In this document: piece by piece, positions 45,723 through 49,742 of the stretch | How positions within the stretch are numbered: position 1 is the stretch's first letter | How the letters are laid out: each line of letters begins with the position of its first letter | Assembly: GCF_014656375.1 (NCBI RefSeq) | Contig: NZ_BNCH01000001.1 | Location: 1-64,000, forward strand | Direction of reading: 5' to 3' | DNA: 64,000 nt | Source: Aliiroseovarius zhejiangensis | GTDB lineage: Bacteria > Pseudomonadota > Alphaproteobacteria > Rhodobacterales > Rhodobacteraceae | Translations under genes and position numbers: made by a program | Notes under the pieces: model-generated | What the model was told of the DNA's origin: nothing | The model's database searches: none | Seen by the model: only the letters and a program-made list of their open reading frames with translations

Positions 45723-46771
45723 CCGAACATTTCTTCCAGATCGACGGTGCCGCGCAGGTTCAGATCCGCGCGATGGGCGTCCAAAAATGCACCTGCCGCC
45801 GCCCGTCCGGCATCCTTCAACCGATGCAGCGTCACCGAGGACGGCACCAGCTTGGTCGCGGTGCTGAGATCACGCATCAGTTCATCATCCGAAATCATGT
45901 GGACGAGTACATCACGCATCTGACCGGGTGACAATTGCCCCGACGCAATCAGCCGCTTGACGAAACTGATCGCCCGAAGCTCGCGCAAAAGCGAGGAATT
46001 GAAGCTGATTTCATTGATCCGGTTCTGGATATCCGCGCCGTTGCGCGGAATATCATGTCGATACAAAGGATTGATGTTCACCACCACGATATCGGCGGGC
46101 AAGGCCGGGTCGAACAGCGGAAACAGCGCTGGATTGCCGGTATAGCCGCCATCCCAGAACGCCTCGTCCGTGCCGGTTTTCGGATCGACCATCTCGACGG
46201 CCTGGAACACCGTGGGCAGGCAGGCCGACGCCAGAATAGCATCTGTGCTGATCTCGTCGCCGCCAAAGACCCGGATTTTGCCCGTGCGCACATTGGTGGC
46301 CGAGACATTCAGGCGCGGGCCGATATCGGCGCAGACCTTGTCATAATCGAAATCCGCAATGATATCGCGCAAGGGGTTCTTGTAGAACGGCCCATAGGCA
46401 TAGGGGCTGACGACGCGACTTGCCATGTCGGCCCATATGAACATGGGCGAGGCCTGAAACGCCTGGCTGATCAGCTCGTTCTGCGGGGCAAATTGTGCAA
46501 ACCACGAGGTCAGGCGCAGGTCATGCACCCCGGCCACCTTGTGCCACAGCGCATCAAGATTGGCGCGCGCCGCATCACGATCCTGCCCCTTGCCATCGGC
46601 CACCAATCCGGCTTTCAGCGCCGCCCCGTTGAGCGCGCCCGCCGAGGTGCCCGAGATCCCGGCGATCTCGATCCCGTCGTCTTCCAGCAGGCGGTCCAAT
46701 ACGCCCCAGGTGAAGGCGCCGTGGGCACCCCCGCCCTGAAGGGCCAGATTGATACGTTTTGGTTGTGCCAT
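45719..46771 (-). CDS. Patatin-like phospholipase
   Basis: 350 residues. Ser-Asp dyad hydrolase: the oxyanion loop is LQGGGAHGAF at about 10-19, nucleophile is in GISGTSAGALNG, and the catalytic aspartate is in FWDGGYTGNP. No signal peptide, so probably a cytoplasmic or membrane-associated lipid acyl hydrolase. It is 6 bases downstream of bdhA on the same strand, so a link to PHB-granule or lipid metabolism is plausible but inferred. Confidence 0.9.
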   Translation of the reverse strand: MAQPKRINLALQGGGAHGAFTWGVLDRLLEDDGIEIAGISGTSAGALNGAALKAGLVADGKGQDRDAARANLDALWHKVAGVHDLRLTSWFAQFAPQNELISQAFQASPMFIWADMASRVVSPYAYGPFYKNPLRDIIADFDYDKVCADIGPRLNVSATNVRTGKIRVFGGDEISTDAILASACLPTVFQAVEMVDPKTGTDEAFWDGGYTGNPALFPLFDPALPADIVVVNINPLYRHDIPRNGADIQNRINEISFNSSLLRELRAISFVKRLIASGQLSPGQMRDVLVHMISDDELMRDLSTATKLVPSSVTLHRLKDAGRAAAGAFLDAHRADLNLRGTVDLEEMFG

Positions 46772-46777
46772 TTCGGG

Positions 46778-47563
46778 TTAAAGCGCCGTCCAGCCGCCAT
46801 CGACCGATATCGTGGTGCCGGTGATCTGCGCTGCCGCGTCCGAGCACAGAAAGACCGCTGTGCCGCCCATCTGTTCGACCGTGGCGAATTCTTTCGACGG
46901 TTGGCGGGCCAGCATGACATCGCGCACCACCTCGTCCCGGCCCATGTTGTGGGTCTTCATTTGGTCTGGGATCTGCGCCTCAACCAGCGGGGTCAACACA
47001 TAGCCGGGGCAGATCGCATTGCTGGTGATCGGGTCCTCGGCGGTTTCCAACCCGACCGTCTTGGTCAGACCGACAATCCCGTGCTTGGCCGCGATATAGG
47101 CGGATTTAAAGGGCGAGGCTGTCAGACCATGGGCCGAAGCGATGTTGATCACCCGTCCCCAGCCCGCCTTGCGCATCATCGGCAGCGCCGCCGCAATCGT
47201 GTGAAACGCCGAGGTCAGGTTGATCGCGATGATCGCATCCCATTTGTCGGTCGGAAAATCCTCGATCGGGGCCACATGCTGAATGCCTGCGTTGTTGATC
47301 AGAATGTCGCACTGCCCGGCTTTCTCGATCAAGGCGCGACATTGATCGCCCTTCGACATATCCGCCTGAATATAGCGCGCGGTGACACCGAATTCCTTGG
47401 AAATTTCAGCCGCCAGTGCGTGATCATCGTCACTATCGGTGAACGAGTTCAGAACGACATCCGCACCGGCCCGCGCCAGTTCGCGCGCGATCCCCAACCC
47501 GATGCCCGAGTTCGATCCGGTGATGACGGCGGTTTTTCCGTTCAGCGACGTGGTGATGGCCAT
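46778..47563 (-). CDS. bdhA: 3-Hydroxybutyrate dehydrogenase
   Basis: 261 residues, short-chain dehydrogenase oxidising D-3-hydroxybutyrate to acetoacetate with NAD. Cofactor motif is TGSNSGIGLGIA, and the catalytic Ser/Tyr/Lys are in NIASAHGL and SAYIAAKHG. ICPGYVLTPLVEAQI and the C-terminal GTTISVDGGWTAL are typical of 3-hydroxybutyrate dehydrogenases. The start at 47563 follows AAAGGGA. Probably a two-gene transcript with the patatin lipase for use of PHB-derived monomer. Confidence 0.93.
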   Translation of the reverse strand: MAITTSLNGKTAVITGSNSGIGLGIARELARAGADVVLNSFTDSDDDHALAAEISKEFGVTARYIQADMSKGDQCRALIEKAGQCDILINNAGIQHVAPIEDFPTDKWDAIIAINLTSAFHTIAAALPMMRKAGWGRVINIASAHGLTASPFKSAYIAAKHGIVGLTKTVGLETAEDPITSNAICPGYVLTPLVEAQIPDQMKTHNMGRDEVVRDVMLARQPSKEFATVEQMGGTAVFLCSDAAAQITGTTISVDGGWTAL

Positions 47564-47589
47564 GGTGGTCCCTTTCAGACGACTGTTGT

Positions 47590-47598
47590 TGCGATGCA
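47590..47598 (-). promoter_or_regulatory. Possible PhaR-like operator near bdhA start
   Basis: TGCGATGCA is a short palindrome (TGC-N3-GCA) 27 bases before the start codon of bdhA. PhaR regulators of PHB metabolism in related bacteria bind TGC/GCA-type palindromes. A nine-base match is common by chance. Confidence 0.25.
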
Positions 47599-47734
47599 GC
47601 ATAACCCAATGTCTTTCGGACGCCAGTGGTTTCCCACCCGCAATCCCGCGGCGGGCCAGGTTGGTTTTGTGTCAGAGACCTGCACCCGATTCTCGTGCTT
47701 CGGGCCGCCGCGAAAGCACCCGGTTTTCAGCCAT

Positions 47735-47810
47735 AAAAAAAACGCCCGCACGAAGCGGGCGTTAAGTTATTGAGGCAGGTTTCATACAGGCAAGAAACCT
47801 ATCGAGCAGT
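47735..47810 (-). ncRNA. Predicted 76-nt small RNA with own promoter and terminator
   Basis: No protein gene fits this stretch. A minus-strand promoter (47817-47845) predicts a start at A47810. The transcript would contain a hairpin with 7-base stem AGGTTTC/GAAACCT (47777-47783 with 47794-47800, loop 10) and a short linker. It ends in a Rho-independent terminator with stem AACGCCCGC/GCGGGCGTT (47741-47763) and an eight-base T run. An alternative reading is a leader that stops transcription before bdhA (start 47563). It is not recognised as a named RNA. A tiny 7-codon frame exists inside but lacks a ribosome site. Confidence 0.6.
47741..47763 (-). terminator. Terminator of the small RNA
   Basis: The 9-base perfect stem AACGCCCGC/GCGGGCGTT has a 5-base loop and is followed on the minus strand by a T tract (47742 down to 47735). 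No protein gene ends upstream of it on this strand, which is why it marks an RNA. Confidence 0.85.
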
Positions 47811-47816
47811 GACCCC

Positions 47817-47845
47817 TTTATAAGCGGTCCGGCGCCACGTTCCAA
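47817..47845 (-). promoter_or_regulatory. Housekeeping-type promoter of the small RNA
   Basis: On the minus strand TTGGAA (47845-47840) and TATAAA (47822-47817) are spaced by exactly 17 bases. It points away from the peptide-binding-protein gene. Confidence 0.6.
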
Positions 47846-47883: not shown

Positions 47884-47924
47884 TTCCCCAAATCAATTCA
47901 GGGATGTGAAGGAAAACGACGTTG

Positions 47925-49742
47925 ATGAGAGCAGCACACATAAAGACATTTCGCAGCTTGATCGGTGCGGTTTCCCTGTCGGTCTTCACCGCGCAGGTCG
48001 GCCTTGCCGAGCCCAAACATGGCATAGCTATGTATGGCGACCCTGCCCTGCCACCGGATTTTGTGTCTCTGCCCCATGTCAACGCCGATGCGCCTAAAGG
48101 CGGCAAGATCATTTTCGCCGAAGCGGGAAGCTATGATTCGCTGCATCCCGTGATCCGAAAAGGCAGCGCACCGTGGCAGTTGCGCTTCATGTTGTTTGAA
48201 AGCCTCATGGGCCGCAGTTACGACGAACCCTTCACGCTTTACGGCCTTCTGGCCGAATCGGTCGAGACGAATGACGCGCGCACATGGGTTGAATACACCC
48301 TGCGCGAAGGCACGCAGTTTTCCGATGGAAGCCCCCTGACCATCGAGGACGTGATGTGGTCCTACGAGGTGCTCGGCACGCTTGGCCACCCGCGTTATCA
48401 CGGGGCCTGGGCCAAGGTGGAAACGATGGAGCAGACCGGTCCCCGCTCTGTCAAGTTCACCTTCAACACCGAAGATCGTGAACTGCCGCTGATCCTGGGG
48501 ATGCGCCCCATCCTGAAAAAGGCGCAGTGGGAGGGGAAGGATTTCGAAGCCTCGGGCGTCGATGTGATCCCGATCGGCTCGTCGCCCTACGTGATCGGTG
48601 ATTTCGAACCCGGTCGCTATCTGACCCTGACGCGTAACCCCGATTATTGGGGCAAGGATGTGCCTTTCATGCAAGGACAGGCCAACCTGGATGAAATCCG
48701 GTTCGACTATTACGGCGACGGCGATGTGACGTTCGAGGCCTTCAAGGCGGGCGAAGCCACCACTCATCGCGAGACGAATCTGCAGAAATGGGCCACTCAG
48801 TTCAATTTCCCGGCGGTTCAATCGGGTGACATCGTGTTGTCCGATATTCCACATCAGCGCCCCACCGGCATCATGGGCTATGTGATGAACACCCGCCGCC
48901 CCGCCTTCTCGGATATCCGTGTACGGGATGCGATGATCCATGCGTTCAATTTCGAGTTCATCAATCAAAGCCTGAACGCTGGCGCGAAGAAGCGCATCCA
49001 GTCCTATTTCCACAACTCGGTCCTTGGGATGGCACCGGGCAAGCCTGCCGAAGGGTTGGTGCGCGAGATGTTGATGGGCTATGACGACCTGCCTGACGGT
49101 GCGGTCGAAGGTTATGCCTTGCCCGTCTCGGACGGATCGGCGCGCAACCGCGCGGGCCTGCGACGTGCGATGGAGCTGATGGAAGAGGCCGGGTGGACCA
49201 TTCAGGACGGCATGATGAAGAACGCCGATGGGCAGCCCTTCACGTTCGAAATCCTGTTGAACACCGGATCGTCCGAAAACCGGCAGGAGATCGACATCTT
49301 CGCCGACGCGCTCGGGCGGATGGGCATCACGCCCACCATCACCTCGGTCGACAGTGCGCAATACAAGGAACGCACCAATGCCTTCGATTTCGACATGGCC
49401 TATTACTGGCGCGGCCTGTCGCTGAGCCCCGGCAACGAACAGCACCTGTATTGGGGATCCGAAAGTGCCGACAAGGAAGGCACCCGCAACTGGATGGGTG
49501 TGAAAAGCGCGGCCATTGACGGGCTCATCGACCAGATGCTGAACGCGCGCGGACAGGACGAATTTCGCGCCGCGACCAAGGCGCTGGACCGCGTGTTGAC
49601 CGCAGGCCGCTATGTCATTCCGCTGGGCTATACCGACCTGTCCCATATCGCCCATGTGAAAGAGCTGAAATACCCCGATCGCATCCCGATGTATGGCGAT
49701 TACCTCGGCTTCCAACCGGAAATCTGGTGGTACGAAGAATAG
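47925..49742 (+). CDS. ABC transporter substrate-binding protein, peptide/oligopeptide type (SBP family 5)
   Basis: 605 residues. A signal peptide covers about 1-28 (FRSLIGAVSLSVFTAQVGLA). The two-lobed periplasmic receptor shows WVEYTLREGTQFSDGSPLTIEDV, the family 5 landmark, and LTLTRNPDYWG. Overall similarity is greatest to YejA-like microcin/oligopeptide receptors. No permease or ATPase genes follow; the next gene is an arsenite pump, so the rest of the transporter must be elsewhere. ATG at 47925 has AAGGAAAA upstream; a TTG directly before it is less likely. Confidence 0.92.
   Translation: MRAAHIKTFRSLIGAVSLSVFTAQVGLAEPKHGIAMYGDPALPPDFVSLPHVNADAPKGGKIIFAEAGSYDSLHPVIRKGSAPWQLRFMLFESLMGRSYDEPFTLYGLLAESVETNDARTWVEYTLREGTQFSDGSPLTIEDVMWSYEVLGTLGHPRYHGAWAKVETMEQTGPRSVKFTFNTEDRELPLILGMRPILKKAQWEGKDFEASGVDVIPIGSSPYVIGDFEPGRYLTLTRNPDYWGKDVPFMQGQANLDEIRFDYYGDGDVTFEAFKAGEATTHRETNLQKWATQFNFPAVQSGDIVLSDIPHQRPTGIMGYVMNTRRPAFSDIRVRDAMIHAFNFEFINQSLNAGAKKRIQSYFHNSVLGMAPGKPAEGLVREMLMGYDDLPDGAVEGYALPVSDGSARNRAGLRRAMELMEEAGWTIQDGMMKNADGQPFTFEILLNTGSSENRQEIDIFADALGRMGITPTITSVDSAQYKERTNAFDFDMAYYWRGLSLSPGNEQHLYWGSESADKEGTRNWMGVKSAAIDGLIDQMLNARGQDEFRAATKALDRVLTAGRYVIPLGYTDLSHIAHVKELKYPDRIPMYGDYLGFQPEIWWYEE

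Follow-up and report, generated by a model that had tools for sequence, protein, structure and literature searches.

StsR (for sRNA targeting sRNA, formerly RSs0827) is a small RNA (sRNA) of Rhodobacter sphaeroides which, according to the papers describing it, is 72 nt long, binds Hfq, depends on RpoHI/RpoHII for its expression and is induced in stationary phase, under iron limitation and by photo-oxidative stress. Binding of StsR to UpsM and to the 5′ leader of the dcw cluster (division and cell wall genes) results in cleavage by RNase E and lower dcw mRNA levels (PMC8307010, PMC11354728, PMC8625941, PMC3413700, PMC3688512). The published cleavage of UpsM triggered by StsR is helped by Hfq. 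A further study gives a length of 268 nt for the mraZ leader of R. sphaeroides, 206 nt for UpsM and 130 nt for its processing product (PMC5089854). The rpoE mRNA, which is paired near its start codon, is another published and verified target of StsR in this species.

The window examined here, a 64,000-nt stretch of an Aliiroseovarius zhejiangensis contig (NZ_BNCH01000001.1, positions 1 to 64,000), very probably holds the stsR gene (probability about 0.9), judged against the published size, promoter and target of StsR. The unit lies on the minus strand. A −35 element TTGGAA (47840..47845, CTTGG in context and RpoHI/RpoHII-like) is separated by a 17-base spacer, as read from the sequence, from a −10 element TATAAA (47817..47822), and a candidate start A at 47810 opens a predicted StsR transcript of about 72-76 nt (47735..47810). 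Its 5′ arm ACTGCTCGAT (47801..47810), of which nt 2-8 match a second site, CGAGCAG, in mraZ leaders, is followed by hairpin 1 (47777..47800), with a 7-bp stem formed by the arms AGGTTTC (47800-47794) and GAAACCT (47783-47777), again by reading, and a 10-nt loop. The loop and 3′ arm make up the predicted main region of pairing with UpsM. An intrinsic terminator with a 9-bp stem and eight T (47735..47763) closes the unit, its stem-loop at 47763-47741 and its T run at 47742-47735. The stem-loop was also recovered by a terminator scan, which found 5 terminator-like sites in the scanned region against a shuffle mean of 3.6. The TTGGAA-17-TATAAA promoter was not among the results of a promoter scan requiring at least 9 of 12 matches to sigma-70. 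Folding of the RNA gave −26.3 kcal/mol against a mean of −14.3 kcal/mol for dinucleotide shuffles (z-score −4.49), and none of 200 shuffles was equally stable. No convincing protein gene lies inside the unit; the plus-strand open reading frames that overlap its 3′ end (45935-47773 and 47439-47765) are mechanical and run antisense to bdhA and its neighbour. The initial annotation, which had described this arrangement between 47735 and 47845 as free of protein genes and with the same promoter, hairpin and terminator, is borne out on all of these points. A scan of the window against Rfam 15 returned no family at its gathering score, so automatic annotation would overlook the StsR gene.

That annotation had made its candidate depend on conservation in near relatives. 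A search of 101 genomes found the RNA unit in 60 of 61 Rhodobacteraceae genomes, the sole miss being a genome that is 74% complete (G053). In the 40 genomes outside the family a single 25-nt match (G064) came up, which lacks the core. The 39-nt core ACTGCTCGATAGGTTTCTTGCCTGTATGAAACCTGCCTC is exact in 56 of the 60 family copies and, among the matches listed, in 173 of the 177 copies examined in relatives and named records, with the four altered copies (L067, L068, L071 and L072) all falling within the 60 relatives. The named records, at least 118 in number, were picked by an exact 28-mer and are uninformative on the conservation of that 28-mer. Copies near contig ends were left out of the respective counts (177 of 179 were kept for the core), and the compared genomes are related and hence not independent. 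In an alignment of 38 sequences the terminator covaries, with changes on both sides in 7 of its 9 stem pairs, and over the structure as a whole two-sided changes occur in 50 cells, where shuffles give 12.6. Hairpin 1 is nearly invariant and covariation is neutral on it. With a covariance model, 11 matches at E ≤ 0.001 were obtained among 385 alphaproteobacterial genomes. Five of these, scoring 101-107 bits, were all in Rhodobacteraceae; the other six, outside the family, scored 29-33 bits, and none of the five that were read had the core. Conservation, the near-identical core and the covarying terminator together indicate that the small RNA gene is real.

The promoter is conserved as well. Of 176 copies examined among the matches listed, 143 of the 150 with both elements have a spacer of 17 between TTGGNN and TATANN, and in 160 of the 162 having the TATA it lies 12 nt before the start. 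Upstream CTTG is present in 59 of 60 relatives and in 101 of 116 named copies, again among the matches listed. RpoHI/RpoHII promoters are described in two papers as carrying TTG near −35 and TAT near −12 (PMC10673084, PMC3441632). The conserved TTG/TAT pattern fits these promoters but is also close to sigma-70, and for that reason the sigma factor is one that we infer, from the work on R. sphaeroides and the promoter match.

The identity of the RNA was suggested above all by its complementarity to another locus. Weak secondary matches of the RNA search turned out to be reverse-complement elements ahead of genes. A 20-nt complement, allowed up to three mismatches, was searched in 61 genomes, of which 37 belong to the family. 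Besides the RNA gene, this brought up a recurrent 20-mer, CAAGTCAGGTTTCATACAGG, in 20 of the 37 family genomes, and a reversed control pattern gave 0 matches across the 61. Sixteen of these places were fetched, of which ten lie by sequence in mraZ leaders (seven with CAAGTCAGGTTTCATACAGG, three with variants); the remaining six (L113-L118) fall outside such leaders and were regarded as chance matches. The downstream mraZ was confirmed through TIGR00242 for six of the ten, below the curated cut-off, above which none of 40 mraZ matches reached (E-values 8e-22 to 6e-6). Across 30 mraZ leaders from as many genera, the longest perfect complement to the RNA exceeded the best of 200 shuffles preserving base composition only in 26, the exceptions being L258, L265, L282 and L279, the last of which is truncated where its contig ends. 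Twenty of the 30 leaders contain TTTCATACAGG, and 23 contain the second element, CGAGCAG, which can pair with nt 2-8 of the RNA and typically follows the first by about 50 nt. Duplex energies were calculated for the 23 leaders with the conserved downstream motif, leaving out the seven without it, and were unmatched by 100 composition-preserving shuffles in 22 (1 of 100 for L257); RNAduplex ignores internal structure and permits long one-sided gaps, and its energies are relative. The leader in the window's own genome (G000:C2, with the site near 239464, the mraZ match from 239687 and a terminator-like hairpin before mraZ) scored −46.8, better than all 1700 background windows. These pairings favour the trans-acting RNA that was one of the two roles initially offered for the locus, and base-pairing with UpsM and the dcw leader, a property of StsR, is predicted here as well.

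The closest link to the described system is provided by G111, which we take to be an R. sphaeroides-like genome, its PufA being 100% identical to the R. sphaeroides sequence. Its RNA has the same 39-mer and the same two neighbours and measures 72 nt when counted from ACTGC through the fourth T, and its mraZ leader carries the site with, by reading, one mismatch in 17. The published lengths put the cut at nt 76/77, within a few bases on the 3′ side of the paired site and inside CCCGCUUUCAUC. In a fold of G111 UpsM by itself, CCCGCUUUCAUC pairs with a GAUGAGA-CGGG element lying upstream. On co-folding with the RNA in G111, pairing of the 14-nt cleavage segment drops from 0.83 to 0.58; co-folding in the window's own genome did not open the segment (0.54 to 0.61). 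Size, the apparent promoter type and the G111 copy agree with the name StsR, and the predicted pairing with UpsM counts most; the name is very probably right. The candidate was initially called undescribed, a label that is superseded by the match in size, apparent promoter type and target to a published RNA, even though Rfam 15 has no family that scores at gathering level in the window.

Could the RNA instead belong to one of its neighbours? The location initially given is confirmed: a divergent gene, named by reading as encoding a peptide-binding (solute-binding) protein, starts at 47922 (47922..49742, plus strand), and bdhA, a 3-hydroxybutyrate dehydrogenase-like gene named in the initial annotation (46778..47563, minus strand), has its ATG at 47563, 171 nt past the terminator end. 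The peptide-binding gene is a constant neighbour, divergent in 59 of 60 relatives and in 107 of 113 testable named copies among the matches listed, and a median of 121 nt separates its start from the RNA core. Its position and distance are steadier than those of bdhA, and the two divergent units perhaps share a back-to-back promoter region with a conserved TTTCAAACTTTTAGCTTGG. bdhA is a frequent but inconstant neighbour. The second role initially suggested, a regulated leader of bdhA in which the terminator would act as an attenuator and set read-through into the gene, draws on its place on the same strand just after the terminator and on its presence within 450 nt in 46 of 59 relatives and 69 of 91 testable named copies (among the matches listed). 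The RNA is kept without bdhA at that distance in the remaining 13 of 59 and 22 of 91 among the same matches; as bdhA is absent nearby in so many copies, the RNA appears independent of it. Further, the terminator is strong and covarying, and mraZ leaders, which lie elsewhere in the genome, are the predicted pairing partners of the conserved 39-mer. On this evidence from neighbourhood and terminator the leader was rejected as highly improbable.

A different concern is that the locus encodes a distinct Hfq-type sRNA which shares the UpsM site, the true StsR being encoded elsewhere. The StsR descriptions compared give no sequence or coordinates, which leaves some room for this reading. Against it, the RNA is single-copy in G111, where the 16-mer of the UpsM site occurs, with up to two mismatches, at three places only: the RNA gene itself, one unrelated locus and the mraZ leader. 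The size, the apparent promoter type and the reported processing position of UpsM also fit StsR, and a separate sRNA of this kind is very unlikely. Least probable of all is a divergent representative of the MmgR/suhB (alpha-r8) family, to which the RNA shows a weak match over the whole RF00519 model; membership was rejected at 21.8 bits against a gathering score of 41 bits, and in G021, G024, G028, G035 and G037 a suhB match above the cut-off lies at a locus separate from the RNA. As an observation on that family itself, suhB/MmgR exceeds the Rfam cut-off in six family genomes, these five (L032, L034, L036, L038 and L040) and G053, and has no such match in the window's own genome. The other weak Rfam matches, among them Leu_leader, Hrs13 and BjrC1505, were all below their gathering scores and were treated as chance.

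With the RNA read as StsR, a second candidate target comes into view. Secondary matches in G013 and G007 precede a gene read as ftsB (DivIC/FtsB-like), which is distant from mraZ, and the ftsB leaders with complementarity to the RNA (L297-L326) include one in the window's own genome, on the same contig and outside the window (G000:C1:261615-261914). In 12 of 12 genomes tested, out of 21 of the window's genus, most of the hairpin is predicted to pair with the ftsB leader over the stretch between ribosome-binding site and start codon, at energies of −41 to −56 reached by none of 100 shuffles preserving base composition only. Contiguous runs are nonetheless short. The own-genome leader has an energy of −41.4, which 5 of 1700 background windows reach, and its longest perfect run, 7 nt, is within the shuffle range (best 9). 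Among 18 ftsB leaders outside the genus, only L325 gave an energy beyond that of every shuffle. GAGGCA is found in 13 of these 18 and AGGCAG in 11, in each case no more than 22 nt from the ftsB start; by reading, one or the other occurs in 16 of 18, compared with no more than 3 of 348 starts of other genes in the loci examined. Part of this sharing could be due to common descent of the ftsB ribosome-binding site. Collectively, the chances for and against the predicted direct control of ftsB by StsR seem to us balanced. No link between StsR and ftsB was found in the literature searched, and two StsR papers other than the primary one do not mention ftsB.

The following sequence of events may be proposed. 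Under stress or in stationary phase, active RpoHI/RpoHII would read the TTGG-17-TATAAA promoter and produce an RNA of about 72-76 nt. This RNA would pair with the long leader of mraZ, the first gene of the dcw cluster, and also with UpsM, the sRNA that would arise by early termination in that leader. According to the computed pairing, the hairpin loop and 3′ arm would take the site GCAGGTTTCATACAGGC, and CGAGCAG, the second site some 50 nt beyond it, could be taken by the 5′ end. As shown in R. sphaeroides, pairing would lead RNase E to cut the leader, dcw output would fall and growth would slow. In the window's genus the RNA would probably also block translation of ftsB by covering the ribosome-binding site and start codon. 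StsR would then restrain division in two ways, by gripping the dcw leader with two arms and by shutting off ftsB directly, a picture to which we give an even chance. If true, this double constraint would help explain the near-invariant 39-nt stretch.

An stsR ortholog in itself is an expected find. What is new, to our knowledge and within the literature searched, is the predicted two-armed pairing with the leader across genera and the prediction for ftsB. A candidate taken to be undescribed is now placed, with the confidence stated above, in a known circuit running from stress sigma factors to cell division, and the StsR RNA and its leader site are widely kept in Rhodobacteraceae. The analysis further offers two sharp predictions, namely a second arm on UpsM and ftsB as a direct target.

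The StsR network of R. sphaeroides includes rpoE, whereas rpoE pairing in the window's own genome was not above shuffles, since at seven candidate start codons the energy was equalled by 13 to 66 of 100 shuffles preserving base composition only. Either conservation of the target does not extend to this genome or the pairing is too weak to register in the test, and in our view rpoE is a secondary rather than a defining target of StsR. R. sphaeroides is known for both rpoE and chrR; searches of G111 with the ChrR family and an RpoE query did not find them. Separately, a motB-like gene in one genome only (L076, G052:C17) carries, immediately ahead of its start codon, 20 nt perfectly complementary to the RNA. 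Among the described systems, MmgR/suhB (RF00519, alpha-r8; SisA-D in Caulobacter) is another short sRNA from alphaproteobacteria that has both a hairpin and a terminator. UpsM, the dcw sRNA derived from a 5′-UTR, is the predicted partner, for which the window's own genome has such a leader; it is the target and not the RNA described here. StsR of R. sphaeroides comes from another genus and differs in terminator and linker, but is alike in being an RNA of about 72 nt from a free-standing gene, with an intrinsic terminator, a promoter resembling the RpoHI/RpoHII type and pairing, predicted here, with UpsM and the dcw leader.
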